DNA of 36,744 bases from Microbacterium sp. CPCC 204701. GTDB lineage: Bacteria; Actinomycetota; Actinomycetes; Actinomycetales; Microbacteriaceae. Positions 9,735 through 36,265 of this stretch are shown in pieces. Under the pieces are notes generated by a model that was given only the letters and a program-made list of their open reading frames with translations, did not search any database and was not told the DNA's origin. Numbering within the stretch: position 1 is the first letter of the stretch; each line of letters begins with the position of its first letter. Where the stretch lies: assembly GCF_004010105.1 (NCBI RefSeq), contig NZ_RRYE01000007.1, positions 1 to 36,744 on the forward strand, written 5' to 3'. The position numbers and the translations under genes were made by a program.

Positions 9735-11260
9735 GCTGTTGGTTCCGTTCTCATCACGCGTGCCATGAGGTCGCTCATCTCGATGGCGCTGGTATCGAAC
9801 TCGTCGGTGATCGCACCGTTGGTCATCACGAGGATGCGGTGGCAGACGAGGAGAAGCTCCTCGTACTCGGAGGAGACCACGACAACCGCGTTGCCCTCGT
9901 GGCTGAGCTGGCGGATCAGGTCGTAGATCTGCGCCTTCGCGTGGACGTCCACGCCGCGTGTGGGCTCGTCCAGCAGCAGCACCCGCGCGCCGGCGCTCAC
10001 ACACCGGCCGAGCACGACCTTCTGCTGGTTGCCGCCGCTGAGCGTCCCAGCCTCGACCTTGAAGTCGTGGACCTTGATGTCCATCGAGCGCTTGGACGCC
10101 TCGGCCATCTCGCTGGCGGCCTTGCGGGATATGACCCCGGTGGGTGCGATCTTCTCGTGGCTGGACATCCACAGGTTCTCGCCGACGGACAGGCCCAGCA
10201 CCAGCCCCTCGGCTTTGCGGTCTTCGGGGACCAGGGTGACACCGCTCTTGATCATTTCGCTGGTCGTGCGCCGTCTGGCGCGCTTGCCGAAGACCTCGAC
10301 CTTGCCGGTGACGCGGTCGCCGGCGCCGGCGATACCGCGCAGGAGCTCTGTGCGACCCGAGCCGAGCAGGCCGGCGATGCCGAGCACCTCGCCTGCCTTC
10401 ACATCGAAGCTGATGCCTTTGAGGAGGTTGCTGTCGGTGATGTCGACGACGCGCAGGGCGACGGGGGCGTCGGGGCCCGGACCGTCAGTCGGCCGGGACT
10501 CCCCGAAGTCGGTGTCCGATCCCACCATCAGCTCGGCCACCTTCCGGACCGGAGCCTGCGCGATCGGAAGGGTGTCGATCACACGGCCGTCGCGCACGAC
10601 AGTCACGGAGTGTGCGACGCGGGCGATTTCATCCATGCGGTGAGAGACGTAGATGACCGACATTCCCTGGGTGGAGAGGCGCCGGACGAGGTCGAGGAGC
10701 TTCTCCACCTCATGGGCCGGGAGAGAGCTGGTCGGCTCGTCGAGGATGAGCACTTTCGGGCGGTGGATGACCGAGCGGGCGATTTCGACCAGCTGCTGGC
10801 GGGCCAGGCTCAGGGATCCCGCGGGGGCGGCGACGTCCATCTTCTCCCCCAGCATCGCCAGCGCCTCGTTGGCGACCTCGCGCTGCTTGCGCCGGTCGAT
10901 CTGCCCACCGGCCCGGGTCGGCCAGTTTCCGAGTGTCACGTTCTCGGCTATCGAGAGCCCGGGAATGATGGTGAGCTCTTGGTGGACCGTGGCAATCCCG
11001 GCGTTCATCGCCGTGGTCGGGGTGTCCAGCTTCATCGTGACCCCGGCAACGGCCACCTCGCCGTCGGTGGGCTGCTGGATGCCGCTGAGGACACGGACCA
11101 TCGTGCTCTTGCCTGCGCCGTTGCGGCCCATCAGTGCCCGCACCTCGCCGGATGCGATCGAGATCGACGCGTTGTCGAGGGCGCGCACTCCTGGGAACTC
11201 GACGGTCACACCGCGGACTTCCACGGCGGGTGGGGACGCTGCTTCTGCTTCGCTGGACAT
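9731..11260 (-). CDS. Ribose-type ABC ATPase, two fused nucleotide-binding domains
   Basis: A 509-aa RbsA/MglA-like ATPase with two domains. NBD1 has Walker A GRNGAGKST, a degenerate signature SLSLARQQ and Walker B VLILDEPTS. NBD2 has the degenerate P-loop GLLGSGRTE usual for this family, signature LSGGNQQK and Walker B LLLDEPTRGVD. The start at 11260 has AAGGAG five bases upstream; the in-frame ATG at 11281 does not. It energises the sugar or cyclitol importer. It lies 69 nt after the binding-protein gene, with a strong hairpin between, and overlaps the permease by four bases. Confidence 0.92.
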   Translation of the reverse strand: MSSEAEAASPPAVEVRGVTVEFPGVRALDNASISIASGEVRALMGRNGAGKSTMVRVLSGIQQPTDGEVAVAGVTMKLDTPTTAMNAGIATVHQELTIIPGLSIAENVTLGNWPTRAGGQIDRRKQREVANEALAMLGEKMDVAAPAGSLSLARQQLVEIARSVIHRPKVLILDEPTSSLPAHEVEKLLDLVRRLSTQGMSVIYVSHRMDEIARVAHSVTVVRDGRVIDTLPIAQAPVRKVAELMVGSDTDFGESRPTDGPGPDAPVALRVVDITDSNLLKGISFDVKAGEVLGIAGLLGSGRTELLRGIAGAGDRVTGKVEVFGKRARRRTTSEMIKSGVTLVPEDRKAEGLVLGLSVGENLWMSSHEKIAPTGVISRKAASEMAEASKRSMDIKVHDFKVEAGTLSGGNQQKVVLGRCVSAGARVLLLDEPTRGVDVHAKAQIYDLIRQLSHEGNAVVVVSSEYEELLLVCHRILVMTNGAITDEFDTSAIEMSDLMARVMRTEPTA

Positions 11261-13480: not shown

Positions 13481-14518
13481 CTACCTGGGCGGGGCGGCGG
13501 TGCTGCCGCGAACGACCAATGAGGACGGAACCTTCCGCTGCACGAGTTCACGCTGCGGATCGGCGAGACGCCTATGCACAGCTTCGATCGCGAGCTCGGC
13601 CATCGCCTCGGGATCCGGCTTCACCGTCGTCAGATCGAAAAAGGGCAGCTTCGCCAGCGTGCTGTCGTCGAACCCGACGATCGACATGTCATGGGGAATT
13701 CGGACGCCCTCGCGGAGGAGGGTCTCCATGACACCGAAGGCGCAGCGGTCATTCACGCACACGAGCGCCGTGGGCTGCGAGGGTCGTCGGAGGATCGACT
13801 GCGCGGCAGCGTATCCGCCCTCTTCGCTGTAGTCGCTCGAGACGACGTCGGTGAACTCCGCGAGCGTGAGCCGACGCATCGCGTCCCCGTATCCGTTCTT
13901 CCGCTCAGCCGCGTTCGGGCCCTCGGACGGACCGATGTACGAGATGCGGTGGTGACCGAGGCCCGCGAGGTGCTTGACGGCCTGAGCGATCCCCTCTTCG
14001 TTCTCCACGAGAATCCGATCATGATCGCCAGCCGCCCGCGGGCCACCGAGCAATACCGCCGGGATATCAGCGGGAAGCGTAGACAACCTCCCGTCCGCCT
14101 CCTCCAAAGTGAGCACGATCAGCGCTTCGATCCGCTGACGCATGAGTTCATCCAGCGCCGTCTCCTGGGAACGCCCCAAGCCGACTGTGCTCAGAACCAG
14201 CCGGTATCCGAGTCTCCCGGACGCCCGGTACAGCGCATCGACGAGGTCGACCTCGAAAGGCTGGCGCATCGTGAACAGCACACCCAACTGGCCGCTCCGC
14301 CGGCGACGCAACAGGCGCGCGGAGTCGTCCGGGTAGTAGCCCATCTCCCGAGCTGTCGCGAGAACGCGTTGGCGAGATTCCTCGCTGGCACCCTCGACGT
14401 CTCTCAGCACGATGGAGACCAACTGCCGGGACATGCCGAGGCGGTCGGCGATGTCCTGCATCGTCGGCCGACGACGACCATCCGCCGCGCTGCTCCTCGC
14501 ACGTCCGGCCACTGTCAC
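13481..14518 (-). CDS. LacI-family transcriptional regulator
   Basis: A LacI-family repressor of about 345 aa. The helix-turn-helix and hinge lie near the N-terminus (MQDIADRLGMSRQLVSIVLR, then YYPDDSARLL), followed by a periplasmic-binding-protein-like effector domain (GQLGVLFTM, ISYIGPSEGPNAAERKNGY, ALVCVNDRCAFGVME, SIVGFDDSTLAKL). Starts are ambiguous: GTG at 14533, 14518 and 14512 are in frame. 14518 is chosen because GGAGG lies at suitable distance. It is divergent from an MDR dehydrogenase and upstream of the ABC operon, so it likely controls both, with the transported sugar as effector (inference). Confidence 0.9.
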   Translation of the reverse strand: MTVAGRARSSAADGRRRPTMQDIADRLGMSRQLVSIVLRDVEGASEESRQRVLATAREMGYYPDDSARLLRRRRSGQLGVLFTMRQPFEVDLVDALYRASGRLGYRLVLSTVGLGRSQETALDELMRQRIEALIVLTLEEADGRLSTLPADIPAVLLGGPRAAGDHDRILVENEEGIAQAVKHLAGLGHHRISYIGPSEGPNAAERKNGYGDAMRRLTLAEFTDVVSSDYSEEGGYAAAQSILRRPSQPTALVCVNDRCAFGVMETLLREGVRIPHDMSIVGFDDSTLAKLPFFDLTTVKPDPEAMAELAIEAVHRRLADPQRELVQRKVPSSLVVRGSTAAPPR

Positions 14519-14649: not shown

Positions 14650-15678
14650 ATGAAGGCATTCGTCATCAACGGTCCAGGAGACGCGGCGATCGCCGATGTC
14701 GAGCCGCCAGAGGCACGGCCCGACGAGGTGGTCGTTCGTGTTGCCCGCGTCGGCATCTGCGGAACAGACGCTGAGTTCTTGCGTGGAACACAGCCATATC
14801 TAGCGAGCGGGGGTGCCAGCTACCCCTTGCGGATCGGCCACGAATGGTGCGGAACCGTTGCCCGGATCGGGGCCGACGTCGACCCGTCGTGGATCGGCCG
14901 AAGAGTCACTGGCGACACCATGCTGGGCTGCCGCGAATGTGGTACGTGCAAGCAGGGCAGGCAGCACCTGTGCCCGCGCCGCACCGAAATTGGCGTCCTT
15001 GGCGGGCGCCCGGGCGCCCTCGCCGAAGAACTCGCCGTCCCGGTGACGGCACTGCACTCCCTTCCCGGAAGGTTGAGCGACACGCTCGGCGCACTCGTCG
15101 AGCCCGCATCCCTCGCCCTCCGGGCGGTGAACGCGCTCCCGGCCGTGCCCGGTGACAGGCTCCTCGTTTGGGGAACAGGCGCCCTCGGGTTGAGCGCGGT
15201 ACTGTTCGCGGCGGTCAAGGGGCTGGAGGTAACCGCGGCCGCCAGGTCGCCTCGAGCCTTCGAGTTGGCACGCAAGTTGGGTGCCACACATACATGCACA
15301 GAGGAAGAACTGCCGAACTCCGATAGCTTTGACAGCGCGATCGCAGCCTCTCCCGACGCGTCGGTCCCCGAACGGGCTGCACGCAAGCTGCGCGACGGCG
15401 GAACCCTCGCCCTGCTGGGCATTTCCGGCGAGACCAGCAATCTCGATGTTCGGGACATCGTCACCCGAGATCTGCACGTCGTCGGGCTCCTCAGCGGCTC
15501 GCCTTGCTTCCGCGAGACCATCCAACTTCTCTCCCAAGAGAACTGTCGCCGACTCGAGCTGATCGTGGGGACCGAGGTCGACCTTGACGAGGCGACATCC
15601 GCGTTCGACGCGGCAGCAAAGCAAGGCCCGCAGCGCGGACCCAAGACCCACATCCTGATCACCACCCACCACCACTAA
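14650..15678 (+). CDS. Zinc-dependent MDR dehydrogenase, divergent from lacI
   Basis: A 342-aa medium-chain dehydrogenase. It has CGICGTDTAEF-like catalytic zinc residues (GICGTDAEF, GHEWCG), a structural-zinc quartet in CRECGTC followed by seven residues and Cys, and a Rossmann motif LVWGTGALGLS. It resembles glucose/threonine/polyol dehydrogenases. It ends in a His-rich tail (TTHHH). The start at 14650 has GGGAGAGG upstream; the in-frame ATG at 14593 lacks a ribosome site. It differs clearly from the MDR enzyme at 7585-8595, so the locus has two distinct dehydrogenases under one probable LacI regulator. Confidence 0.87.
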   Translation: MKAFVINGPGDAAIADVEPPEARPDEVVVRVARVGICGTDAEFLRGTQPYLASGGASYPLRIGHEWCGTVARIGADVDPSWIGRRVTGDTMLGCRECGTCKQGRQHLCPRRTEIGVLGGRPGALAEELAVPVTALHSLPGRLSDTLGALVEPASLALRAVNALPAVPGDRLLVWGTGALGLSAVLFAAVKGLEVTAAARSPRAFELARKLGATHTCTEEELPNSDSFDSAIAASPDASVPERAARKLRDGGTLALLGISGETSNLDVRDIVTRDLHVVGLLSGSPCFRETIQLLSQENCRRLELIVGTEVDLDEATSAFDAAAKQGPQRGPKTHILITTHHH

Positions 15679-20209: not shown

Positions 20210-21772
20210 TTAGCCGGCGATCTCCGCAGGGTCTCGTCGGCGGGTCGCCGCAGCGGCGGCGAGTAGCGCGTCGGCGCCGTCCTTGTCCGAGGTTCCGAAC
20301 ACGTAGCGATCGGGACGCAGGAGCGCGGTGTCGCACCCGAAAGTCGCGAACCATTCGCCCAGGACGCCGTCGCGGTCCTCGATGTCCCGGCCCACGATCA
20401 GCACCGATGCCCCCGCCGGGTCAGCGGGAGCGGACGCCGCAGGGCTGCCGATCAGCGTCCAGTCACGGCCGAGCACCTCGTCGAGGCGCACGCGGGCACC
20501 GTCGCTCGTGTTGACCCATGGCTGCGGGAAGAGCAGACCGCTCGCCGCGGAGCGGTCGGGCTCGAGAACCCCCGCGACGAGACCGGGGATCGTGTCGCGG
20601 AAGGTTCGGACCTGCTGAGGCTGAGGCTGCGGCTCCGCCATCCGCGCCCGCATCTCTTCGTCGCGCACCCGCGCGAGCTCCGGATCCAGCACGCAGATGT
20701 ACCGTCCGTTCGCGACGGACTGGTCGATGATCGCCCGGACGTGCGGTTCCCGTTCGCTCTGATAGGTGTCCAGAAGACCCTCCGGCTCGCCCTCGCGGAG
20801 CACCGCGGCGAGCTTCCAAAGCAGGTTGCGCACGTCACGGATGCCGTGGCACATGCCCTGGCCGTAGAACGGCGGTGTCTGATGCGCCGCGTCTCCCGCG
20901 AGGAAGACGCATCCCTCCCTCCACCGCTCGGCGACGAGCGCGTGGAACTCGTAGATGGCGACGCGCTCGATATCGATTTCGTCTCGTCGCAGCCACGGGG
21001 TGACGCCGCTAATGATCGACCAGGCACCCTCGGCGGTGGTGTATTGCTGGCCGTTCTCGCCGGGCAGCAGCATGAACTCCCACCGGCGGTGCCGCCGCGG
21101 CCCGGGCACGTACGTGCCGGGGCGGGCGGGATCGCAGTACATGATCGAGTAGTCGGGGCCCTGGTCCTCGTCCTGAACGGCACCGTCGATGATGAACCAC
21201 GGCTCCTCGAATCCGTAGTCGGTGAGGGCGATGCCCAGCTGCTTGCGGATGCCGCTGGACGCACCGTCCGCCGCGATGACGTACCGACCCTGCTCGCGCA
21301 GCGTCGCCCCGTCCTGCCCGCGCAGTTCGACCGTGGCAACGTCTCCGTCCTGCGTCACCGACTCGCACCGCCAGCCCAGCAACGCGCTCACGTGCGGCGC
21401 TTCGGCCGCCCGCCGCCGTAGGAGCGCGTCGACCTCGGGCTGGTAGAACATGTAGTGCGGCTTCCAACCAAGGTCGCCGTCCACTGCCGTGACACGGAAG
21501 TCGCGGATCGGTTCTCCGTCGGCGCCGAGGTGCAGCCCGCCCGAGGTTGCGCGCGCGAGCGGTTCGATCTCATCGGAGAGCCCGGCGAACTGGAAGATGC
21601 GCATGATGTCCGCGTCGAAGTGGATCGCGCGCGGAAGCGGATACACCTCAGTCGAGGCGTCGACGAGGAGCGTCCGCAAACCCTGCCGGTCGGCGATGAC
21701 GGCAGCAGCGCTGCCGACCGGTCCTGCGCCGATGATGATGACGTCGTACACCGGGCCGGAGATATCGCTCAC
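20210..21772 (-). CDS. FAD-dependent aromatic hydroxylase (MhpA/PheA type)
   Basis: A 520-aa class A flavoprotein monooxygenase. It has the N-terminal FAD motif VIIIGAGPVGSAAA (G15, G17, G20), the DG motif AADGASSGIRKQLG, the GD motif FLAGDAAHQTPPFYGQGM and a C-terminal thioredoxin-like extension (GRDWTLIG...ADPAGASVLIVGRD...LRPDRYVFGT). Relatives ortho-hydroxylate phenolic rings with NAD(P)H and O2, preparing them for extradiol cleavage. Start is GTG 21772 in a four-base GTGA overlap with the dioxygenase gene; longer in-frame readings to 22003 lie inside that gene. Confidence 0.92.
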   Translation of the reverse strand: MSDISGPVYDVIIIGAGPVGSAAAVIADRQGLRTLLVDASTEVYPLPRAIHFDADIMRIFQFAGLSDEIEPLARATSGGLHLGADGEPIRDFRVTAVDGDLGWKPHYMFYQPEVDALLRRRAAEAPHVSALLGWRCESVTQDGDVATVELRGQDGATLREQGRYVIAADGASSGIRKQLGIALTDYGFEEPWFIIDGAVQDEDQGPDYSIMYCDPARPGTYVPGPRRHRRWEFMLLPGENGQQYTTAEGAWSIISGVTPWLRRDEIDIERVAIYEFHALVAERWREGCVFLAGDAAHQTPPFYGQGMCHGIRDVRNLLWKLAAVLREGEPEGLLDTYQSEREPHVRAIIDQSVANGRYICVLDPELARVRDEEMRARMAEPQPQPQQVRTFRDTIPGLVAGVLEPDRSAASGLLFPQPWVNTSDGARVRLDEVLGRDWTLIGSPAASAPADPAGASVLIVGRDIEDRDGVLGEWFATFGCDTALLRPDRYVFGTSDKDGADALLAAAAATRRRDPAEIAG

Positions 21773-22647
21773 CGCGCGATCTCGCTCTCCTGTAGCGGCG
21801 GGATGAACACCTCGCGGAACCCCGTGGGGGGAAGCGGTCCCCACAGGACGGCGGACTTCAGTCCGTTTGTCCAGACCTCCGCCTCCCATTCCTCCTCTTC
21901 GCCGATCTGCAGCATGTTGGAGCAGACCTCGAGGATCGAGCCGGCCGGATCGAGGTGGTAGGTGAAGATGTTCATCCCGAGCGCGTGCCGGCCCGGACCC
22001 CACATGAAATTCTGGCCGCGAGCGGCAAGAAGGTCGCCGAGCGCACCGAGACCGTTGATGTCGGAGGTCTCGAACGCGTAGTGATGCAGCCCGTCCTCGC
22101 CGTTGAAAACGGCGACAGTGTGGTGGTTCTCATTGCAGCGCAGCCAGTGGCGCTCGCCCAGGACGCTGTCGGTCAATCGAAAGTCGAGGACGTCGATGAA
22201 GAAGTTCTTGAACGCCTCCTGGTCGCGAGCAGCGAAGCTCAGGTGGTCAAGGGCTCCAATGACGGGTCCACCCTCGCGCGGCGACTCGTTGCGGACGTGC
22301 GGATCGCCGACGCCCACCTCTACGGCCACGCCGTTCGGAGCGTGGAAGCGGATCGTCGGTACCTCGAGCTCGAACCCGTCGCTGTAGGCCACGCCATAGG
22401 CGTCGAGGCGGCGACGAATCTCCGCGAGGTTGCCCGCGGTGGTGTGCAGCGCCATGAAGTCGAAGGACGCCGAACCGTGCGTGCGCAGGATGAGGCAGGG
22501 CTCCTGACCGGGCAGAGCGAGGCGGACCTGATCGGCGGTCTGCTCCCGCACGTCGAGGCCGAGCAGTTCGCTCGCGTGGGCGACGGATGCCGCAAGGTCG
22601 GGCACGCGGAATCCGGCGCGGACGAGGTGGTGGGTCATTGTGGTCAT
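21769..22647 (-). CDS. Type I (VOC) extradiol ring-cleavage dioxygenase
   Basis: A 292-aa two-module vicinal-oxygen-chelate dioxygenase. Predicted Fe(II) ligands in the C-terminal module are H135 (GALDHLSF), H188 or H189 (GLHHYAFE) and E240 (SILEVCSN). The acid catalyst is in CNENHHTVAVF (H175/H176) and the conserved Tyr is in FTYHLDPAG. It should meta-cleave the catechol made by the FAD hydroxylase. The acidic C-terminal tail (IGEEEEWEAEVW) is family-typical. AGGAG precedes the ATG at 22647; the overlap downstream implies coupled translation. Confidence 0.92.
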   Translation of the reverse strand: MTTMTHHLVRAGFRVPDLAASVAHASELLGLDVREQTADQVRLALPGQEPCLILRTHGSASFDFMALHTTAGNLAEIRRRLDAYGVAYSDGFELEVPTIRFHAPNGVAVEVGVGDPHVRNESPREGGPVIGALDHLSFAARDQEAFKNFFIDVLDFRLTDSVLGERHWLRCNENHHTVAVFNGEDGLHHYAFETSDINGLGALGDLLAARGQNFMWGPGRHALGMNIFTYHLDPAGSILEVCSNMLQIGEEEEWEAEVWTNGLKSAVLWGPLPPTGFREVFIPPLQESEIAR

Positions 22648-22685: not shown

Positions 22686-23498
22686 TTATCGGTCCAGACG
22701 GAGCGCCGTGCGCGCGTCGTCGACGGTGGCGATGGAGAGGTCGAGCGACCTGGCTAGTGCGACAGTCCGCTCTACGAGGGGCAGATTCCCCGGTGCCAAC
22801 TCGCCCTTGCGCAGGTAGAGGGTGTCCTCCATCCCCGTGCGGGCGTTCCCACCGAGGGCGAGCCCCACCGCTGTCAGCGACAGGTTGGTGCGACCGATCG
22901 CGATCACCTGCCAGATGGCGCCCTCGGGAAGGCGGCGCACCATCGTGAAGAGGTTCTCCGCGGTGGCCGCCATCCCGCCCTGCACGCCGAGCACGATGCT
23001 GAACTGCAGGTCGCCGTCCAGGAGGCCCTCGTCCCTCAGGCGCAGGCACTCGTCGAGGTGTCCGGAGTCGTAGATCTCGAGCTCGGGCTTGATCCCGAGG
23101 TCCTTCATCTTCGCCGCGAGGCGTCGCACGTCTCGCGGCGGGTTGCGGAACTCGCCGCGGCCGAAGCTCATCGAGCACGGGTTCAGCGTCGCCATCGTCG
23201 GGCGCAGGTCGACGAGTCGCTCGCGCTCTTCGAAGGGGACCTCGAGGCCCACCCCGGTGGAGAGTTGGATGAGGATGGGGCAGCGGTCTTGGATGAGGTC
23301 CATCACCTTGCGCGCGATGCCGAGGTCGGCGGTGGGTCGCTGCTGCTCGTCCCGGACGTGGATGTGCGCGACGGCGGCCCCTGCGTCGTACGCGGCGCCG
23401 ACGGCGTCGGCGATCTCCTCCGGGGTGGTCGGCAGCGCGGGGTTGTCCGCTTTGCTCGCGATGGGACCGGTGGTCGCTACGGTGATGACGGCGCTCAT
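22686..23498 (-). CDS. Beta-keto acid cleavage enzyme (BKACE, DUF849)
   Basis: A 270-aa zinc-dependent TIM barrel of the family of 3-keto-5-aminohexanoate cleavage enzyme. Zinc ligands are seen in AHIHVRD (H45, H47) and GMED (E225). STGVGLEVPFEER and LNPCSMSFG are other conserved segments. Family members react a beta-keto acid with acetyl-CoA to give acetoacetate and a new CoA thioester. In this operon the beta-keto acid is probably produced from the ring-cleavage product (inference). GAGGAG lies before the ATG; only 8 nt separate it from the FAH gene. Confidence 0.9.
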   Translation of the reverse strand: MSAVITVATTGPIASKADNPALPTTPEEIADAVGAAYDAGAAVAHIHVRDEQQRPTADLGIARKVMDLIQDRCPILIQLSTGVGLEVPFEERERLVDLRPTMATLNPCSMSFGRGEFRNPPRDVRRLAAKMKDLGIKPELEIYDSGHLDECLRLRDEGLLDGDLQFSIVLGVQGGMAATAENLFTMVRRLPEGAIWQVIAIGRTNLSLTAVGLALGGNARTGMEDTLYLRKGELAPGNLPLVERTVALARSLDLSIATVDDARTALRLDR

Positions 23499-23506
23499 GG
23501 GGCTCC

Positions 23507-24409
23507 TCAGGCGGATCGGGGGACGGGTCGACGGGCGTGCGGAGCCTCTTCGGCGGCGACGGGGTTGCGGAGCGTTCCGATACCGTCGATCTCTACCTCG
23601 ACGACATCGCCTGGCCGAAGGAACACGACCGGGTCGCGGCGGATGCCGACGCCGCCGCTGGTGCCGGTGACAATGACGTCGCCGGGCTCCAGGCGGTGGA
23701 TGGTGGAGAGGTAGCTGACCATGTCCTCGATGCGGAACAGCAGCTCCGAGATCCGCGCGGACTGCATCACCTCGCCGTTGAGCCGCGTGATCATGGTGTG
23801 CTCGTAGGGGTCGCCGAACTCGTCGGCGGTCACGAGCCAGGGGCCGAATGCACCGGAGTCGGCGAAGTTCTTCCCGGGCGTGATCTGGCTCGTGTGCCGC
23901 TGCCAGTCGCGCACGGATCCCTCGTTGTAGCAGGCGTATCCGGCGATGTGCTGTCGTGCGTCCTCGGGGGCGATGTGGCGACCGCCGCGGCCGATGATGA
24001 CGGCCAGCTCTCCCTCGTAGTCGAGTTGCTCGGAGACGGCGGGGACCAGCATCCGCTGACCGTGGCCGACCTGGCTGTCGGGCAAGCGCAGGAAGAAGAC
24101 TGGGAAGTCGGGGACGGGTCGGTCGCCGCCCTCCTGGACGTGGCTCAGGTAGCTCAGCGCGGCGCACCAGATGGCATGCGGGTCGGGCACCACCGGGAGC
24201 AGGGTGACCTCGGCGAGTGGGGCCGACGTGTCAACGTCCACCTGCGTCGCCGCCTGCTCGAGGCCTTGCAGGCGCTCGGTAGGCCAGGCGACGAGTTCGC
24301 GCATCACCGAGGGGGCGCTCGCGTCGAGGGATCGGACGTCGATGATCCGGTCGCCAAGGACAATGCCGACGCTGCGCCGGTCGCCGAGTTCGTAGCTGGC
24401 GAGCTTCAT
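23507..24409 (-). CDS. Fumarylacetoacetate-hydrolase-family protein
   Basis: A 300-aa FAH-fold hydrolase, first gene of the PadR-facing operon. Metal ligands E132 and E134 are in DYEGELAVIIGRGG. The third position, normally Asp in the NDxSxRD motif, is Glu163 here (YNEGSVRDWQ). The C-terminal core GDVIVTGTSGGVG and FLRPGDVVEVEIDGIG are normal. Family members hydrolyse C-C bonds of acylpyruvate-like ring-cleavage products, or act as hydratases or decarboxylases. The start at 24409 with GGGAG is preferred to the ATG at 24472, which lies in the promoter. Confidence 0.9.
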   Translation of the reverse strand: MKLASYELGDRRSVGIVLGDRIIDVRSLDASAPSVMRELVAWPTERLQGLEQAATQVDVDTSAPLAEVTLLPVVPDPHAIWCAALSYLSHVQEGGDRPVPDFPVFFLRLPDSQVGHGQRMLVPAVSEQLDYEGELAVIIGRGGRHIAPEDARQHIAGYACYNEGSVRDWQRHTSQITPGKNFADSGAFGPWLVTADEFGDPYEHTMITRLNGEVMQSARISELLFRIEDMVSYLSTIHRLEPGDVIVTGTSGGVGIRRDPVVFLRPGDVVEVEIDGIGTLRNPVAAEEAPHARRPVPRSA

Positions 24410-24557
24410 GGCTGTCTCCCGGTCTTCTTCGACGATGTATGCCTGGACACCGTATGATGTTAAATAGAACATGTCAACTTTTACATGTCCGGTGCAACAC
24501 GTAGTTCAGATTGATGGGACACCTTTGACATGTCAGGTTTGCGATTAGGGTGAACCC
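24410..24557. promoter_or_regulatory. Divergent promoter with phased PadR-type operators
   Basis: On the plus strand ATGT (24457-24460), ACATGT (24469-24474) and ACATGT (24483-24488) form two consecutive ATGT-N8-ACAT sites on a 14-bp period. They overlap a minus-strand promoter candidate: TTGACA at 24477-24472 and TACGGT at 24454-24449, 17-bp spacer. A perfect palindrome TGACATGTCA (24526-24535) overlaps TTGACA (24525-24530) of the padR promoter, whose -10 may be TAGGGT at 24546-24551. That would place the transcript start at or near the ATG 24558, a possibly leaderless mRNA. ATGT-N8-ACAT is the arrangement I recall for PadR operators. Confidence 0.75.
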
Positions 24558-25133
24558 ATGGCGCTCAGGTACGCGATACTCGGTTATCTCAGCTCCGGAC
24601 CCGGGTCGGGTTACGACCTCGTCCAGCAGATGGACGGCGACCTCGGTTGGTTCTGGGCTGCATCGCACAGCCAGATCTATCCCGAACTGCGCAACCTCGA
24701 AACGGCCGGCCTCATCGAGGGAACGGCGACGACCGTCGGCGAACGCCTCGAGAAGCGCGTCTACTCGCTGACCGAAGAGGGCGCCCGGCAGTTACAGGCA
24801 TGGACCGAGAAGACGCCGCAGTATCGACCGAACCGCGACGCGGAGCGCCTGCAGCTGATCTTCGCCGACGGCAACGGCGTCGAGTCGATCCGCGCGCATC
24901 TCGAGACGCATCTCGACCACTTCACCCGCCGTCGGGCGCAGCTCATCGGCATGCGCGACCGCATCCTCAACCGCGAGCATCCGCGCGTCGAGCAGCGTCT
25001 GGCGTTGAAGGACGCGCAGGGCCGGGAGCTCAGCCTGTTCCTGCGGGACATCGCCTACGGGGGCGACCTGCGCCGCGCCGAAGGGGAGATCGCGTGGGCG
25101 AAGGAGAGCCTCGCCCGCCTCGACGAGCTCTGA
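24558..25133 (+). CDS. PadR-family transcriptional regulator
   Basis: A 191-aa PadR-type repressor. It has an N-terminal winged helix (ALRYAILGYLSSGPGSGYDL, SHSQIYPELRNLETAGLI, KRVYSLTEEGARQL) and a C-terminal helical dimerisation domain (about residues 95-191, Vir_act_alpha_C type). PadR proteins typically respond to phenolic acids or other aromatic ligands. It is divergent from the ring-cleavage operon and shares its regulatory region, so it likely represses that operon and itself. A perfect 15-bp stem follows the stop. Confidence 0.93.
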   Translation: MALRYAILGYLSSGPGSGYDLVQQMDGDLGWFWAASHSQIYPELRNLETAGLIEGTATTVGERLEKRVYSLTEEGARQLQAWTEKTPQYRPNRDAERLQLIFADGNGVESIRAHLETHLDHFTRRRAQLIGMRDRILNREHPRVEQRLALKDAQGRELSLFLRDIAYGGDLRRAEGEIAWAKESLARLDEL

Positions 25134-25198: not shown

Positions 25199-26623
25199 TC
25201 AGGAGAGGCTCGTGAGCCGCTCTGACCATTCCTCCGCCTCGTGGGTCAGGTTCGCTGCGTCGTCCATCTCACCTGCGACGGACAGCAGGTAGTCGCGGGA
25301 GTCGTCGAGCCGTCCGAGCAGGTCGCCGATCTGGGTGTCGGTGAGCTTGCCGGCGCGCTTTCGCACCTTGCCGTTCACGATCACAGTGTCGACATTGCCG
25401 GCGTGCGCGTGTAGCACGAGATCCGCCACCGGGTCGAGCACGGGCGCGAGGTTGAGCGACCGTGCGTTGACGAGAACGATGTCGGCGAGTTTGCCCGGCG
25501 CGAGTGTGCCGATCTCGCTCTCCAGGCCGATCGCGCGTGCGCCCTCGAGCGTCGCCCAACGGAACACGTCGCGCGTGCTCACTGGCTGATCGACGATCGT
25601 CTCGTAGTTGCTCCCCGGGCCGTCATTGATCTGGTGACGCGAGAACGTCAGCGCCATCCTCATGTTGGCGTACATGTCGCCGGACATGCAGGTAACGCAG
25701 TCCGTACCGAGCGAGGGCTGCACCCCCGCGAGGAGGGCGTCGCGGTACGGCGTGGGCTGGGCGATGCCAAGAGCGATCTCGGAGTCGGGCGAGCTGGCGA
25801 AGTGGGCACCCAGGTCGCGCACGACGTCGAAATCATCGACGCGGAACTCGTTGCAATGCGACAGCACCGCGCGGTGGTCCACGAGACCCTTGCCGACGAG
25901 CGTGTGGAAGCCGCGTGTGATGGGCGCGTTCCCCGGACCACAGTGCGTGTGCGAGGTCCACACGGCATCCATGTCCAGCGCCGACTGCACCTCATTGACC
26001 GTAAGGTCCAGCGGCAGCAAATTTTGCTCCGTGATTGCGACGCCCATGCGAAGCAGACTCGAGTCCGACGAGTTGAAGTAGCGCTCCTTGATCCGGAACG
26101 CGTCCTTGACCCGATCGGCGTGAGACGCGAACGCCTGCAGGCCCTCCACCTCGACCGGGCAGTAGCCGTACGCCCAGACGCCGCGGATGCCGGAGTTCAG
26201 CTCTGCCTCCACGAGAGCGACCGAGTGATCGGGCGTCACCACGCCGTGGCTGTGATCCAGCACGGAGGTCGTCCCACCGTCGATGAGCTCCAAGGCGCCG
26301 ACGAGCGTGCCCAGGTACACGTCCTCCGGCCGATAGCGGCTGAGGTAGTCGCGGCGGACGTCACTGAAGTAGCCGACGAGGGTGCGGTCCGCGACGACCC
26401 CGCGCAACGCCGTCTGCCAGAGGTGCTTGTGCGTGTCCACGAATCCGGGATGCACGATCATCCCCTCCGCGTCGATGACCTCGCATCCCTCCGGCGCGTC
26501 GATCGACGCCGCGATCTGGACGATGCGCTCACCTTCGATGAGCAGTGATCCGCGCCGCAGGTCGCCGATGGTCGGGTCCATCGAGACGATCCAGCCATTC
26601 TTGATGAGCGTGCGCTCCGTCAT
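25199..26623 (-). CDS. TRZ/ATZ-type metal-dependent amidohydrolase
   Basis: A 474-aa amidohydrolase-superfamily enzyme. The metal-binding residues are in order: DTHKHLWQ (H65, H67), SHTHCG (H225/H227), LSHCNE (H256) and GTDCVTC (D308). The N-terminal LIKNGWIVSMD and C-terminal LAPGKLADIVLVNA beta-sandwich segments are typical of the chlorohydrolase/deaminase (TrzN, AtzA, guanine deaminase) group, which removes amino, chloro or alkoxy groups. It is the last gene of the P450 operon, ending at a strong terminator. AAGGAG precedes the ATG 26623. The substrate is unknown. Confidence 0.87.
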   Translation of the reverse strand: MTERTLIKNGWIVSMDPTIGDLRRGSLLIEGERIVQIAASIDAPEGCEVIDAEGMIVHPGFVDTHKHLWQTALRGVVADRTLVGYFSDVRRDYLSRYRPEDVYLGTLVGALELIDGGTTSVLDHSHGVVTPDHSVALVEAELNSGIRGVWAYGYCPVEVEGLQAFASHADRVKDAFRIKERYFNSSDSSLLRMGVAITEQNLLPLDLTVNEVQSALDMDAVWTSHTHCGPGNAPITRGFHTLVGKGLVDHRAVLSHCNEFRVDDFDVVRDLGAHFASSPDSEIALGIAQPTPYRDALLAGVQPSLGTDCVTCMSGDMYANMRMALTFSRHQINDGPGSNYETIVDQPVSTRDVFRWATLEGARAIGLESEIGTLAPGKLADIVLVNARSLNLAPVLDPVADLVLHAHAGNVDTVIVNGKVRKRAGKLTDTQIGDLLGRLDDSRDYLLSVAGEMDDAANLTHEAEEWSERLTSLS

Positions 26624-27887: not shown

Positions 27888-29030
27888 TCAGGCCTGTCCC
27901 GCGTGCGCGTGCAGGCGCGAGATCGGAATGTGTCGGTTCAGCGCGACTGCCGCGACAGGGCTGCCGTCGGTCGACCAGCGCCACAGCGCGGTCAGGTCCG
28001 CGAGGTCGCCGTCGAGGAGTTCGGGCTCGTGATCGGGAATTCCCTCACCGGCGACCTTCAGGGACAGGTCGAACTGGTGGGTCCAGAAGTAGGGGCGTGC
28101 CACGTACGGCTCGGCCTCGTCGCCGCGGAGAAGCGCGGCCGCCGCCGACCGTCCCTGACCGAGCGCGCTGGACCAGTGCGGGGTGCGCGCCCGGCCCTGG
28201 AGAGAGACGACGTCGCCGGCAGCGACGATATCGGATGCTACGCGGCACCGCTCGTCGACAATCAGCCCGGGAGACACGGAGAGCCCGGAGTCCCGGAGCC
28301 ACGCGACGTTCGGAACGCAACCGACGGCGGTGACGACCGCATCCGACTCGATGGTCTCGCCACCCGCACGTACGCGCGTGCGCCCGCCTGCGGCTTCGAG
28401 CACCGCACCCTTGGAAGCCACGCTGTAGATCACACCCGCGTCGAGCGCGCGGTCGAGGATGAGCTGCGACACATAAGGACCAAGGGCGGAGAGCATGGGG
28501 GCGGTCGTTCCGATCACGGTGACGTCCATGCCGGCGCTCGCTGCGGTGGAGGCGATTTCCATTCCTAGTACTCCGCCGCCGACGACCGTCAGGCGATGAC
28601 CGTCGACCAAGAGGGCCCGGAGGGCACGCGCGTCGTCCGCGGTGCGCAGAACAGTTTCATCGAGACCGTCGGGATTGCCGCCCCAGTCGCGCAGGGTTGC
28701 CGCGCGCGCACCCGTCGCGATGACGAGGCCGTCGTAGGGAACCTCGTCGCCGTCGAGCAGTACGCGCCTGCGGTCGCGGTCGAGACCGTGCGCGGCCACG
28801 CCGGCGATGAGGTCGATGTCGAGGTGATCGAGATCCGGGAGGCGGATGTCATCGTCGGTCTCCGAACCCGCGAGGAACGCCTTCGAGAGAGGGGGCTTGC
28901 TGTACGGCTGCTCGGTCTCGTCGCCGATGAGCGTGATCGTGCCGTCGAAACCGTCCGCGCGCAGCTCCTCCGCAGCCGTGATGCCGGCGATGGAAGTGCC
29001 GACGATCACGATGCGGCGCGGCGCGGTCAT
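27888..29030 (-). CDS. NAD(P)H-dependent ferredoxin reductase (FAD)
   Basis: A 380-aa putidaredoxin/rubredoxin-reductase-like flavoprotein. It has an FAD motif VIVGTSIAGITAAEEL at the N-terminus, PYSKPPLSKAFLAG (flavin-contacting loop), an NAD(P)-binding VVGGGVLGMEIA, and SDIVAAGDVV near the C-terminal part. It should pass electrons from NAD(P)H to the ferredoxin for the P450. The start overlaps the ferredoxin stop by four bases (ATGA), showing a tightly coupled electron-transfer operon. Confidence 0.93.
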   Translation of the reverse strand: MTAPRRIVIVGTSIAGITAAEELRADGFDGTITLIGDETEQPYSKPPLSKAFLAGSETDDDIRLPDLDHLDIDLIAGVAAHGLDRDRRRVLLDGDEVPYDGLVIATGARAATLRDWGGNPDGLDETVLRTADDARALRALLVDGHRLTVVGGGVLGMEIASTAASAGMDVTVIGTTAPMLSALGPYVSQLILDRALDAGVIYSVASKGAVLEAAGGRTRVRAGGETIESDAVVTAVGCVPNVAWLRDSGLSVSPGLIVDERCRVASDIVAAGDVVSLQGRARTPHWSSALGQGRSAAAALLRGDEAEPYVARPYFWTHQFDLSLKVAGEGIPDHEPELLDGDLADLTALWRWSTDGSPVAAVALNRHIPISRLHAHAGQA

Positions 29031-29254
29031 GCTCCGGCGGATTCGAGGCGCAGGGCGGCGACCGGGCAGCTGCGAACCGCCTTCTGCGCCATATCCAACT
29101 GCTCGGGGGTGACGTGGTCGACGAGCATGTGGAGGTTTCCCTCGTCGTCGAGCCGCACCAGTTCGGCCGCACGCTCCTCACAGAAGCCGTACCCCTCGCA
29201 ACGCGACTCGTTCAGATGAAGCACGGTGGTGCCCGACTGCGTCTGCTCCGGCAT
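29027..29254 (-). CDS. [3Fe-4S]-type ferredoxin for P450
   Basis: A 75-aa ferredoxin with ligands C19, C25 and C63 in CEGYGFC and SCPVAAL. The position that is Cys in [4Fe-4S] proteins is Tyr22 here, fitting a three-Cys [3Fe-4S] cluster as in several actinobacterial P450 partners. Start ATG 29254 has GGAGG nine bases upstream; the longer GTG frame at 29275 would swallow that site. It is first in the operon, with a good promoter upstream. Confidence 0.9.
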   Translation of the reverse strand: MPEQTQSGTTVLHLNESRCEGYGFCEERAAELVRLDDEGNLHMLVDHVTPEQLDMAQKAVRSCPVAALRLESAGA

Positions 29255-29372
29255 AGCCGATGACCTCCTCGTCACTGCGATGTGGCTTCACAGTAGGTGA
29301 GCAAATTCGCTTGTGTCAATCCTGACCTGTAACTTCTTGCATGATTGGTCGATTCCAGTTTAGGTTCAGTGC
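29255..29372. promoter_or_regulatory. Divergent promoters, ferredoxin operon and HtaA gene
   Basis: Minus strand: TTGACA (29319-29314) and TACTGT (29295-29290), 18-bp spacer, drive the ferredoxin-P450 operon. Plus strand: TTGCAT (29337-29342) and TTAGGT (29360-29365), 17-bp spacer, would start transcription almost at the ATG 29373, and no ribosome site is visible there, so that mRNA may be leaderless. GCATGATTGG (29339-29348) and GCATGATCGG (29371-29380) form a 32-nt spaced direct repeat. No ATGT-N8-ACAT site was found. Confidence 0.6.
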
Positions 29373-29870
29373 ATGATCGGAGAACTGCTGTGGGCCGTGA
29401 AGACGTCCCTCTTGGGCTACGTCGCCGCGCAGGCCGACGGGACGATCGAGGTGACGGGCGGCGCGGAGCGTTCGGATGACCGTCGTTTCCGGTTCCCGCT
29501 CGTGCCCCAGCCGGGCGAGCCGACGGGCACGCTGATGTTCCGGGGCGGCATCCGTCTCCACGCCCACGGCGGCCTGATGGACGTCACGCTGGAGGATCCG
29601 TGGATCTCGACGGGCGCCGAGTCGACCGTGTCTGTACTTGCGACGACGGGCGGTGAGGATCCCGAGCGCATCGTCCTGGCGCGGTTCGCCCTCCTTCCCG
29701 ACGGCGAGCACGCCTGGCGCGGCGAGCGCGTGCGGCTTACATCCGACGGCGCGTTCGCGCTCGGCGGTCTGCAGTACCACGAGCACCAGCAAGTCGACGA
29801 TCTCGCGTTCTCCGCACCCGCGGGCGACGCCCCCGATACCACCCACCTGACAGAGAAGAGCTCGCGATGA
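29373..29870 (+). CDS. Single HtaA-domain protein, cytoplasmic
   Basis: A 165-aa protein that is nearly all one HtaA-like domain. It shows the conserved LLWAVKTSLLGYV start, FRFPL, GTLMFRGGIRLHAHGGLMDVTLEDPWIS, and later Leu/Ala-rich strands. HtaA domains in Corynebacterium bind heme on the cell surface, but this protein has no signal peptide, no membrane segment and only one domain. Its role next to a P450 operon is unknown; heme handling or a hydrophobic-ligand role are both open. It overlaps the cupin gene by four bases. Confidence 0.75.
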   Translation: MIGELLWAVKTSLLGYVAAQADGTIEVTGGAERSDDRRFRFPLVPQPGEPTGTLMFRGGIRLHAHGGLMDVTLEDPWISTGAESTVSVLATTGGEDPERIVLARFALLPDGEHAWRGERVRLTSDGAFALGGLQYHEHQQVDDLAFSAPAGDAPDTTHLTEKSSR

Positions 29871-30325
29871 CCGATAGGCTGCGACGGATCGTGACCGCCG
29901 ACGACAGCGACGGCCGCGCCGTCTTCGTGGCGGACGGCCCGAACCCGCACGTATGGGAGGCACCCGACGGCGGCCCGGTCTTCGAGCTGTGGGCGGATGA
30001 CGGCGCGTCAGACAGCGGTGTCGGCTTCGACGATCCGGTCCTGCGCGGGTCTGCGCTCGCACCGCCCGAGCGCGGCTCGGTGTTCCGCATCGTCGACTTC
30101 GCCCCGCGCGCACCCGGCGAGCAGGTACACATGCACCGCACGCCCTCCCTCGACTACTGCTACGTGATCGAAGGCGACATCGTCGCGGTGCTCGACGACG
30201 AGGAGCGGCGAATGTCCACGGGCGACGTGCTCGTCCAGCGCGGCACCAACCATGGATGGCGCAACGAGTCAAGCAAGATGTGCCGCATGCTCTTCGTCCT
30301 CATCGGCGCGCCGTCCCTGGGTTGA
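29867..30325 (+). CDS. Cupin-domain protein
   Basis: A 152-aa single cupin. Motif 1 is in PGEQVHMHRTPSLDYCYVIEG (His pair and later residues) and motif 2 in STGDVLVQRGTNHGWRN. Small cupins of this kind occur in aromatic catabolic clusters as isomerases, dioxygenase-like proteins or sensors; function here cannot be set. It is translated with the HtaA-domain gene (ATGA overlap) and is the last gene before the gene-poor stretch next to dnaB. Confidence 0.85.
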   Translation: MTDRLRRIVTADDSDGRAVFVADGPNPHVWEAPDGGPVFELWADDGASDSGVGFDDPVLRGSALAPPERGSVFRIVDFAPRAPGEQVHMHRTPSLDYCYVIEGDIVAVLDDEERRMSTGDVLVQRGTNHGWRNESSKMCRMLFVLIGAPSLG

Positions 30326-31047
30326 ACTCGGGGAAGGGTCATCTCGCGCGGGGTGCCGCTGAGGTTGGCGGGACTTTCGCGGCGAAGGTCGCTCAGCTGC
30401 ACTCGGAGGACCCCCCAGTCGAAAGAGCAATGTGCGCGCCGAGCGCACGCTAGGCAAGCAACCCCGACCCGAGAGGACCCTAGGAGTCCTCTCCGAGAAG
30501 CGGCAGCGACCGCAGCGCCGCCCTGACGGGGTCGATCATCTGGTCAAGCTGCCAGGAGATCTCATATCAGCAGTAACCGCATTGCCGGGTGCCGACAGGT
30601 GCCGTGCCTTTCGCCGCATACGCCGCAGCGCCGAGAACATGAGCTCCCATGTGAGCCACCCCGCGGCCTGGTCGGCAGCCCACGCAGCGGTCTGTGCAGC
30701 CGAACGATACCGCCTGAGACGCGCGGACTGCCACGAGGCGATGCGTGTCTCACCAGCGGCATCGAGCGTGCCCGCCGCAACGCTCGAGCTCGGGTGAAGC
30801 CGTCCGGCGTCGGCCGTCGTCAGGTGCCTGGGACTCCAACAGGAAGGGCACTCTCTCGACTCAGTCCGCGGCCATAGTTGCAGCGAGTCGGCGGTCGGCA
30901 CCGCTGAGCGATTGCGGAGAAGTCACACGAGCACCTTCGCACGATTCGGCGCCGAGCGGAGCATTAGCACCGGGGCCGAAATGTCCATTTGGACACGCGG
31001 TGGACATCTCACCCGCGAAACGGACGACTCCAACCGGAACCTACACC
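30326..31047. other. Gene-poor stretch 3' of dnaB, probable remnant DNA
   Basis: About 720 bp with several overlapping short frames, none with a ribosome site or a recognisable domain. A 121-codon minus-strand frame (30536-30901) is rich in Arg and Ala and looks non-coding or decayed. The right end carries the second IS-end-like module, which runs into the dnaB stop codon. No clear dnaB terminator was seen. Confidence 0.5.
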
Positions 31048-31050
31048 TCA
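30982..31050 (-). repeat. IS-end-like module, copy 2, touching dnaB stop
   Basis: Plus-strand order: TGTCCA-TT-TGGACA inverted pair (30982-30995), TGGACA (31001-31006), 14 nt, CGGACG (31021-31026), 9 nt, GGAACCTACACCTCA (31036-31050). GACATCTC, a 25-nt gap and the final 15-mer are shared exactly with 16188-16235. The last three bases are the complement of the dnaB TGA. The box sequence differs from copy 1 (TGGACA versus CCGACA) while the spacing is the same, apart from a 3-nt longer gap after the palindrome. Confidence 0.55.
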
Positions 31051-32421
31051 CCCGAAGTCGCCCGGCGCCATGTCGGTGAAGCGCGAGAAGTGGCCCTGGA
31101 AGGCGACTGTGATCGTGTCGGTAGGGCCGTTGCGGTGCTTGGCCACGATGAGGTCGGCCTCACCGGCGCGCGGGGAGTCCTTCTCGTAGGCCGCCTCGCG
31201 GTGCAGCAGCACGACCATGTCGGCGTCCTGCTCGATCGAGCCCGACTCGCGGAGATCGGAGAGGGCGGGCTTCTTGTCGGCGCGCTGCTCGGGACCACGG
31301 TTCAGCTGCGACAGCGCGATCACCGGACACTGCAGCTCTTTGGCGAGGAGCTTGAGGGCACGCGAGAACTCCGAGACCTCCTGCTGTCGCGACTCCACGC
31401 GCTTGCCCGAGGTCATGAGCTGCAGATAGTCGATGACGACCATCTTCAATCCGGCCCGCTGCTTGAGCCTGCGGCACTTCGCCCTGATCTCGACGAGCGT
31501 CATGTTCGGGCTGTCGTCGATGTAGAGCGGTGCGTCATTGATGCGACCCCGCGTCGCGGCGATCGTCGTCCAGTCGCGTGAATCGAGCGTGCCCTTGCGC
31601 ATCGACTGCAGCGGCACCGCGCCCTCGGCGCTCATGAGACGCATCGCGATCTCGCTGCGCCCCATCTCGAGCGAGAAGAAGATCGTCGGCATGTCGTGCT
31701 TGATCGCGGCGGCCCGCGCAAAATCCAGAGCCAGGGTGCTCTTGCCCATCGCAGGTCGTGCGGCGATGATGATCATCTGCCCCGGGTGCAGCCCGTTGGT
31801 CAGCTGGTCGAGACCCGCGAAGCCGGTCGGGATGCCGGTCATCTGGCCGTCACGACCCCGCGCCGCCTCGATCTCTTCGACCGCGGCATCCACCGCGATC
31901 GTGAGCGGCACGTAGTCCTCGGCTGCCTCCGCACCGGTCACCGAATAGATCTCGGCCTGGGCGTTGTTGACCAGGTCGAGCGCCTCGCCCTGCCCCGAGT
32001 ACCCCATCTGCACGATGCGCGTGCCGGCCTCGACCAGGCGCCGCAGCAGCGCGCGCTCCGACACGATCGACGCGTAGTAGCCGGCGTTGGCGGCGGTCGG
32101 CACGATCGAGGTGAGCGTGTGCAGGTAGTCGGCGCCGCCGGCGCGCTGCAGCTCTCCGGTCTTGATGAGCTCGTCGGTGACCGCGACGACGTCGGTCGGC
32201 TCTCCGTGCGAGTAGAGCGTGAGGATGGCCTCGAAGATCAGCTCGTGCTTGGGGATGTAGAAGTCGGTGCCCCGAAGCGTCTCGATGACGTCGGCGACGG
32301 CATCCTTCGACAGCAGCATTCCGCCGAGGGCGCTCTGCTCGGCGAGCAGGTCGTGCGGGGGAGTGCGCTCGTACTCACGGGGACCCCCCATGCGCTCCTC
32401 GGAGATGTCGGCGATCGACAT
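31048..32421 (-). CDS. dnaB: Replicative DNA helicase DnaB
   Basis: A 457-aa hexameric helicase. The N-terminal domain begins PPHDLLAEQSALGGMLL. The RecA-like core has Walker A ARPAMGKST (K227), FFSLEMGRSEIAMRLMS, Walker B VVIDYLQLM, and the C-terminal ALSQLNRGPEQR and SGSIEQDADMVVLLHR motifs. No intein interrupts the motifs. ATG 32421 follows a GGAGG; the in-frame ATG at 32496 adds a non-conserved leader. It lies in the ssb-rpsR-rplI neighbourhood usual for actinobacteria, but two secreted-protein genes intervene. Confidence 0.97.
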   Translation of the reverse strand: MSIADISEERMGGPREYERTPPHDLLAEQSALGGMLLSKDAVADVIETLRGTDFYIPKHELIFEAILTLYSHGEPTDVVAVTDELIKTGELQRAGGADYLHTLTSIVPTAANAGYYASIVSERALLRRLVEAGTRIVQMGYSGQGEALDLVNNAQAEIYSVTGAEAAEDYVPLTIAVDAAVEEIEAARGRDGQMTGIPTGFAGLDQLTNGLHPGQMIIIAARPAMGKSTLALDFARAAAIKHDMPTIFFSLEMGRSEIAMRLMSAEGAVPLQSMRKGTLDSRDWTTIAATRGRINDAPLYIDDSPNMTLVEIRAKCRRLKQRAGLKMVVIDYLQLMTSGKRVESRQQEVSEFSRALKLLAKELQCPVIALSQLNRGPEQRADKKPALSDLRESGSIEQDADMVVLLHREAAYEKDSPRAGEADLIVAKHRNGPTDTITVAFQGHFSRFTDMAPGDFG

Positions 32422-33032
32422 AGGCTGCGCGTCCTCCAGATCGTTCGTTCCATCGTCCGAGCTCGGGGCGACGTGCGCCGGACGGCACGGCGGCATGCGA
32501 GCGCACTCGACCGACAGGGTGCTTGGGCACCCTGCTCGTCGACTCGCTCACATGCGCGATCCGGTAATTGCCGCACTGCTGCAGCACGCCCCCCGATTGG
32601 GCCGAACCCCACGCTAAGGACGCCCTCCGACACTCGCAACATGCCCTGTGGATAACTGTGTGGAAAGACTGCGAGAAACGCCGATGCCCCTGTGAACAAC
32701 GGCTGTGGACAACTCCCGGGTTCTCGTGCTCCCCCGCTTCGAAAACCGCGCCTGATCAGGGGCTGCGCATTTCACAGGCTGTGGAGGAGGATGTGGTTGA
32801 AGTCCCTCTTTAAGGTTTTGCACCGAGGGGGCACCTGTGCACAATTCCGGGGACGGGCGCCGCTGCGCGCGCACATGAGCATGCTCCGCGCGCGCGGAGG
32901 CTCGGCAGTGCGCCGATCTCGGCCCGCGAGTTCCTGGACACACCGGTCGGCACACGCTAACGTCTCAAGTCCAGGCACTCTCACGCACGTCCGTTCTGGA
33001 GCGTGTGGCGCTGTTCGTCGTGGGAGGTGAAC
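32422..33032. promoter_or_regulatory. dnaB upstream region with DnaA-box-like cluster
   Basis: The 611-bp gap contains seven same-orientation 9-mers resembling DnaA boxes (reverse complement of TTATCCACA): TGTGGATAA 32647 (perfect), TGTGGAAAG 32659, TGTGAACAA 32691, TGTGGACAA 32704 (actinobacterial form), TGTGGAGGA 32780, TGTGGTTGA 32792 and TGTGCACAA 32836. Close pairs are 12-13 bp apart. A short AT-rich patch follows at 32807-32820. The cluster begins about 225 bp upstream of the dnaB start. The rest of the gap contains no gene I can support. Confidence 0.6.
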
Positions 33033-35812: not shown

Positions 35813-36265
35813 CTACTTGGCAGCGACCACCTGGAGGGTGATCACGGCGGTGAGGTCGTCGCGAAGACGGATCGTCGCCTCGTGCTCGCCCACCGACTTG
35901 ATCGGCGAGGTGATGTGGATCTTGCGCTTGTCGAGGTCGCCGAGGCCCGCGGCCTTGACCGCGTCGGCGACGTCGGAGGTCTTCACCGCACCGAAGAGAC
36001 GGCCCTCGGCGCCGGCCTTGACCGACAGCTTGACCTTGTTGCCCTCGAGGGCGTCCTTGAGGGCCACGGCCTCTTCGTGGTCGTGGATCGCGCGCGCCTC
36101 ACGGGCGGCGCGGATCGACGCCACCTGCTTCTCGCCACCGCGGGTCCACGCGACCGCGAAGCCCTGGGGGATGAGGTAGTTGCGGGCGTACCCGTTCTTG
36201 ACCTCGACCACGTCTCCGGCGCTTCCGAGCCCGGCGACCTCGTTCGTGAGAATGAGCTTTGCCAT
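35813..36265 (-). CDS. rplI: 50S ribosomal protein L9
   Basis: A 150-aa L9 with the conserved N-terminal RNA-binding domain ([31 protein letters not shown], split here at its usual points: [17 protein letters not shown]), a long connecting helix and a C-terminal domain ending ITLQVVAAK. It binds 23S rRNA domain V. It lies 11 nt after rpsR and is the last gene of the ssb-rpsR-rplI group, followed by a 17-bp stem terminator. Confidence 0.97.

Follow-up and report, generated by a model that had tools for sequence, protein, structure and literature searches.

In Microbacterium sp. CPCC 204701, a gene for a PadR-family regulator stands back to back with putative aromatic-degradation genes, and the intergenic region between them (positions 24410 to 24557) carries repeated ATGT and ACAT half-sites. 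This raises the question of which protein the repeats serve and how they would act on the adjoining promoters. The stretch analyzed, referred to as the window, comprises the 36,744 nucleotides of contig NZ_RRYE01000007.1 (positions 1 to 36,744).

The padR gene (24558-25133, plus strand) encodes a protein of 191 amino acids. Divergent from it, on the minus strand, are genes for a fumarylacetoacetate-hydrolase (FAH) family protein (23507-24409; PF01557), which is the first gene behind the repeats, a member of the beta-keto acid cleavage enzyme (BKACE) family (22686-23498; PF05853), an extradiol-dioxygenase-like protein of the VOC fold (21769-22647), identified by a Pfam glyoxalase match and scoring 93.6 bits against a catechol 2,3-dioxygenase model, below the cut-off of 320, and an FAD aromatic hydroxylase of an MhpA-like subfamily (20210-21772; NF004829, 485 bits, over the cut-off). 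Beyond padR, also on the minus strand, lie genes for an amidohydrolase (25199-26623; PF01979), a cytochrome P450 (26685-27875; PF00067), a ferredoxin reductase (27888-29030; identified by profile matches, with counterparts in relatives) and a small ferredoxin-like protein (29030-29254). The last is an open frame named by eye, with approximately 44% identical counterparts in locus L034 of Candidatus Leucobacter sulfamidivorax and locus L047 of genome G518. These are followed on the plus strand by an HtaA-domain gene (29373-29870; PF04213) and a cupin gene (29867-30325; PF07883). Operons were predicted from gene direction and spacing. A small HtaA-family protein with a single domain is a recurrent member of padR/P450 clusters, being encoded beside padR in L034 (6588-7028) and L047 (7704-8123); HtaA domains are otherwise associated with haem uptake. 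The catabolic cluster ends near genes for a DnaB-like helicase (31048-32496) and an L9-like ribosomal protein (35813-36265), both named by eye, which gives it the look of an accessory island adjoining core genes.

Overlapping ATGT-N8-ACAT units upstream of the FAH gene

Exact matches to ATGT-N8-ACAT occur twice in the window, at 24457-24472 (ATGTTAAATAGAACAT) and 24471-24486 (ATGTCAACTTTTACAT), where 0.16 would be expected; two matches were reached by 2 of 100 shuffled windows. The two sites share 2 bp (24471-24472) within a common ACATGT and keep a 14-bp register, which is continued by a third unit at 24485-24500 with one mismatch (it ends in ACAC), the outer half of which is weak when scored alone (0.1 bits). 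The hexamer ACATGT is present at 24469, 24483 and 24528, the last within the ten-base palindrome TGACATGTCA (24526-24535). The elements named in an earlier sequence-only reading, namely ATGT at 24457, ACATGT at 24469 and 24483 and the palindrome, were all found in place, as was the strict 14-bp period of the two sites; the description of these sites as abutting was incorrect, as they overlap by 2 bp.

The exact double form, ATGT-N8-ACATGT-N8-ACAT, has an estimated expectation of 1.5e-5 in the window and is present as a single copy in the 3.6-Mb genome. When the intergenic region was shuffled 20,000 times, it did not arise with either mononucleotide or dinucleotide composition preserved, and at least two ATGT-N8-ACAT sites arose in none of the mononucleotide and one of the dinucleotide shuffles. 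Lone exact sites are not rare (12 in the genome, including the two of the array, with 10 outside the window); thus, it is the double form that carries the evidential weight.

A symmetric matrix was built from all nine exact sites of five relative loci (L034 and L047 to L050), including one at 1192 of L048 that no clear gene start follows; because possession of the exact core was the selection criterion, the matrix leans toward ATGT-N8-ACAT. Its five best matches in the window begin at 24471 (30.5 bits), 29327 (15.1 bits), 24457 (13.9 bits), 29313 (12.7 bits) and 30981 (11.3 bits), followed by 24485 and 24530 (9.4 bits each), 24435 (4.7 bits) and 24516 (4.5 bits). The best score in 60 random Markov-1 sequences of window length was 15.7 bits. 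Nine matches above 4 bits in the window compare with a mean of 2.8 (maximum of 7) in the random sequences, 2 of which contained a 14-bp pair, and a control set of 29 paralog loci gave four such matches in 101,914 bases.

The matches ranked fourth and second form a possible second, degenerate double operator (29313-29342; units 29313-29328 and 29327-29342), located between the ferredoxin/P450 and HtaA/cupin genes. It has three mismatches to the double motif, equaled at eight other places in the genome, a reversed control pattern has seven genome matches at up to three mismatches, and both single scores lie under the best of the random sequences. The site is thus weak, and the candidate rests on its spacing and place rather than its score. 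No adjoining target gene start was seen at the fifth-ranked match, 30981-30996 (ATGTCCATTTGGACAC; 11.1 to 11.3 bits), which is unexplained or due to chance.

Phasing was examined by scoring the outer half-site only, at offsets of 5 to 45 to the left and right of 14 primary sites, which avoids counting the shared half twice. At offset 14, 6 of the 28 sides exceeded 4 bits, and this offset ranked first in seven (0.7 expected), with a mean score of -5.6 versus -11.7 (standard deviation, 1.9) at other offsets. Offset 6 nearly equals it (mean, -6.2), and at seven other offsets printed at most 2 of 28 sides exceeded 4 bits. The 14-bp register is therefore enriched, yet most sides do not show it. No partner half accompanies the padR sites of the window and L047; by score, the L034 padR site does have one (6.2 bits).

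The PadR protein and its relatives

The padR product matches the N-terminal PadR winged helix (PF03551; 56.4 bits, cut-off of 27) and the C-terminal domain of the Vir_act_alpha_C type (PF10400; 25.1 bits, cut-off of 22.4), and by both domains it belongs to the AphA-like long form (subfamily 1). Its best full-length matches among solved structures are 5z7b and 6lg2, and its recognition segment and wing resemble those of Bacillus subtilis PadR (BsPadR; 5x11). In BsPadR, the H38A and S39A substitutions reduce binding, and H38D in the B. amyloliquefaciens protein (BaPadR) abolishes regulation (PMC10443031); these residues align with His37 and Ser38 of the window PadR. An Asp preceding SQIYPEL, as in VanR, was used as our own marker for VanR-like PadR proteins. 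It was found in 32 of the 41 relatives examined, and the window PadR has His37 at this position. Within 200 bases upstream (149 bases for one Asp-type relative), exact ATGT-N8-ACAT sites were found for none of the 32 Asp-type versus four of the nine His-type relatives, a comparison in which the Asp-type relatives are not independent, as 31 of them are from the genus of the window. A further His-type relative has a site with one mismatch, and the best sites of the other four have two or three mismatches, which was counted against the assignment of these sites to PadR. Upstream of padR, seven Asp-type paralogs (L007, L012, L021, L024, L026, L033 and L041) carry a near-palindrome resembling CTATC...GATAG, which may be an operator class of their own.

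The genomes searched for padR were sampled from larger groups, with only some candidates per genome scored. Among 295 genomes of the genus, 102 match padR at an E value of 1e-20; own gene aside, the matches listed are 31 to 41% identical, and as the best reach only 40 to 41% the gene looks accessory. The 29 paralogs used as controls are those returned as loci from the 101 listed. Closer orthologs were identified in Candidatus Leucobacter sulfamidivorax (Microbacteriaceae; L034, 70% identical) and, within the window's own family, in G518 (loci L035 and L047; 70%) and G601 (loci L036 and L048; 56%), the latter two being the sole matches besides the window's genome among 398 family genomes at 1e-36. 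The class sample (394 genomes, 1e-38) gave nine further matches, two of them in the same genus, and no match beyond the genome itself was found in the order and phylum samples (396 genomes each, 1e-45). Among five genomes of the G518 genus, G518 alone had a match. Four relatives with less than 60% identity were found in plasmids and two in phages, and none in the viral contigs searched.

The gene set around these orthologs is partly shared. G518 has FAH and cupin genes 60% and 68% identical to those of the window and P450, reductase, ferredoxin and HtaA genes at 40 to 47%; the last four are 38 to 50% identical in L034, the cupin gene of G601 is 43% identical, and no FAH gene was found in the L034 and L048 sequences examined. 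L047 has exact units at 10231, in the gap separating FAH from a divergent FAD monooxygenase gene, and at 14108, before the P450 gene. In L034 a unit at 5860 precedes an FAD monooxygenase gene, and in L048 a unit at 15509 precedes a PepX-type hydrolase gene, with the unit at 1192 having no clear target. Upstream of padR, exact sites were found at -68 in L038 and at -71 in L044, and a site with one mismatch at -16 in L036. The expectation that the array would be conserved where the padR-FAH pair is kept holds in G518, the one close relative found with the pair, where the double motif is present with one mismatch at the FAH promoter and with two at the P450 promoter; in the distant L049 (FAH gene, 34% identical) only a single unit was found. 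In G518, C1 contains further exact ATGT-N8-ACAT sites at 2922869, 2924572 and 3137170, of which two, separated by 1.7 kb, mirror each other and one forms the double motif at one mismatch; these possibly mark more regulon members or another PadR.

Proposed promoters at the putative operator units

A promoter for FAH is proposed by eye on the minus strand at 24449-24477, consisting of TTGACA (24477-24472), a 17-bp spacer and TACGGT (24454-24449). The unit at 24471-24486 holds most of this -35 hexamer, and the unit at 24457-24472 lies between the -35 and -10. Similar arrangements were read by eye upstream of the FAD monooxygenase genes of L034 and L047 (TTGACA-17-GATACT), the window ferredoxin gene (TTGACA-18-TACTGT) and the HtaA gene (TTGCAT-18-TAGGTT, six bases before the ATG), and in each of these, as at FAH, the -35 hexamer falls inside an operator half. 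Mechanical promoter scans listed none of the window promoters, which are therefore given as proposals; TACGGT has three of six matches to the -10 consensus, under the scanner limit of four, and the scanner named another promoter instead (24429-24458, plus strand). The suggestion that the array covers the -35 region of the ring-cleavage operon thus fits by eye and was not reproduced by the mechanical scan.

On the padR side, a site at 24516-24545 is built around the ACATGT (24528-24533) of TGACATGTCA, flanked on either side by degenerate partners; its inward-facing units at 24516 and 24530 score 4.5 and 9.4 bits, versus 30.5 bits for 24471, with the relatives-only matrix. The ACATGT at -30 from the padR start is common to the window, L034 and L035. 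The latter two carry ACATGT-N8-ACATGT at exactly -44 and -30 (an ATGT-N8-ACAT site at -42), and the window keeps the -30 element only. As the -30 ACATGT is half of an intact unit in L034 and L035, an inward-facing unit is preferred and an operator centered on TGACATGTCA was rejected. The earlier proposal that one PadR dimer binds at its own promoter was thus not upheld in that form, as TGACATGTCA is not ATGT-N8-ACAT and its inward-facing partners are degenerate. A -10 hexamer for padR, TAGGGT (24546-24551, plus strand), is proposed by eye six bases before the ATG, and the arrangement ACATGT-N12-TANNNT-N6-start is found in the window, L034 and L035. TANNNT six bases before ATG is seen by eye at both padR (24546-24557) and the HtaA gene (29361-29372), which suggests that both transcripts are leaderless.

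Proposed regulation by PadR and its alternatives

Taken together, it is very probable that the array serves the adjacent PadR as its operator and that this protein acts as a local, autoregulated repressor of the accessory aromatic-degradation cluster; the earlier assignment of the sites as PadR operators on a promoter is backed by the comparison with relatives. The operator unit would have a consensus resembling ATGTCAAnnTTGACAT, with two good units and a weaker third overlapping at the FAH promoter in a 14-bp register and sharing ACATGT. As one operator half would double as the -35 hexamer, bound PadR would block access of the sigma factor, and it would leave the DNA once a pathway compound binds. 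Gene content suggests an aromatic ligand, and binding of the dimers may be cooperative. That two dimers could occupy the array side by side, as had been proposed, agrees with the dIR1-2bis/IR1-2 layout of B. subtilis padC, to which two PadR dimers bind (PMC10295242) and in which the second dyad overlaps the first, as in the window, although the sites do so instead of abutting as had been described.

Within this explanation it is possible, if not probable, that the overlapping units give a single dimer a choice of registers instead of seating two cooperating neighbors, or that the outer units (24457 and 24485) are occupied together and alternate with 24471. Geometry suggests that with a shared ACATGT a pair of recognition helices would come together in the same stretch of the groove. 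In favor of such a variant, one box sufficed for repression in B. amyloliquefaciens (PMC10443031), and LmrR gives both 1:1 and 2:1 complexes, in contrast to QacR, which is strongly cooperative (PMC5428041). Activation by PadR at some of these promoters is unlikely: AphA is called a gene activator and the PadR-like PrhP is reported as a positive regulator (PMC6804342), but the units overlie the proposed -35 or are located downstream of it rather than upstream, and the closest known layout belongs to a repressor. Recognition by a different transcription factor is very unlikely. PadR binding at the array is itself a prediction, and 10 further exact sites occur elsewhere in the genome; however, three other genomes have the units next to padR orthologs, two of them at padR's own promoter. 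Chance repeats in a region of lower G+C content (47%, versus 68% for the window) were rejected on the basis of the shuffles and conservation, and their probability is negligible.

A broader reading of PadR repression, which we regard as doubtful, is that the 14-bp register sharing ACATGT is a design rule of His-type PadR proteins from Bacillota to Actinomycetota, with double or triple units at catabolic promoters for tight repression, often single or degraded ones at padR promoters for leaky autoregulation, and the His or Asp of the recognition helix marking the users of the code. Counter to this are the 14-bp partner of the L034 padR site and a pair upstream of padR in L048.

The proposed PadR operator most closely resembles those of padC in B. 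subtilis and B. amyloliquefaciens and of padR-padC in Lactobacillus plantarum, which share ATGT-N8-ACAT overlapping a second dyad and a similar recognition segment. In L. plantarum the overlapping pair is found solely upstream of padR and padC (PMC10295242). The B. amyloliquefaciens promoter has two overlapping 18-bp boxes in 32 bp, which implies the same 14-bp register, and a promoter with box 1 alone is still repressed (PMC10443031). The window differs from the padC systems in its host, in a third unit and in having FAH, dioxygenase and P450 genes as targets instead of a decarboxylase gene. VanR of Corynebacterium glutamicum (5z7b), a full-length structural match, is a PadR-like repressor of an aromatic operon, but it has Asp for His in the recognition segment, and its operator, compared by position alone, lies downstream of the -10 (PMC8358305). 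LmrR of Lactococcus lactis likewise uses an ATGT/ACAT inverted repeat and places two dimers on each lmrCD operator, but the lmrCD half-sites are 10 bp apart (PMC5428041), and LmrR is of the short PadR subfamily 2 (PMC3506622).

Among titles and abstract openings of the open-licence literature, no description of this overlapping operator in actinobacteria was found, and the main text of the Leucobacter paper does not mention PadR, P450, fumarylacetoacetate, extradiol or transcriptional regulator. With the layout already known from padC, the array is most likely a well-supported and fairly ordinary further example. New are the third unit, a candidate for another double operator at 29313-29342, the fusion of operator and promoter proposed by eye, and the finding that clusters of four genomes share the arrangement. 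For a PadR beside an uncharacterised P450/FAH/dioxygenase cluster, an operator, a regulon and a promoter geometry are now proposed, which would allow a search for its ligand by a simple reporter. The padC-type overlapping double operator appears to recur at several promoters in related clusters, which makes it possible to test why neighboring units overlap by one half-site.
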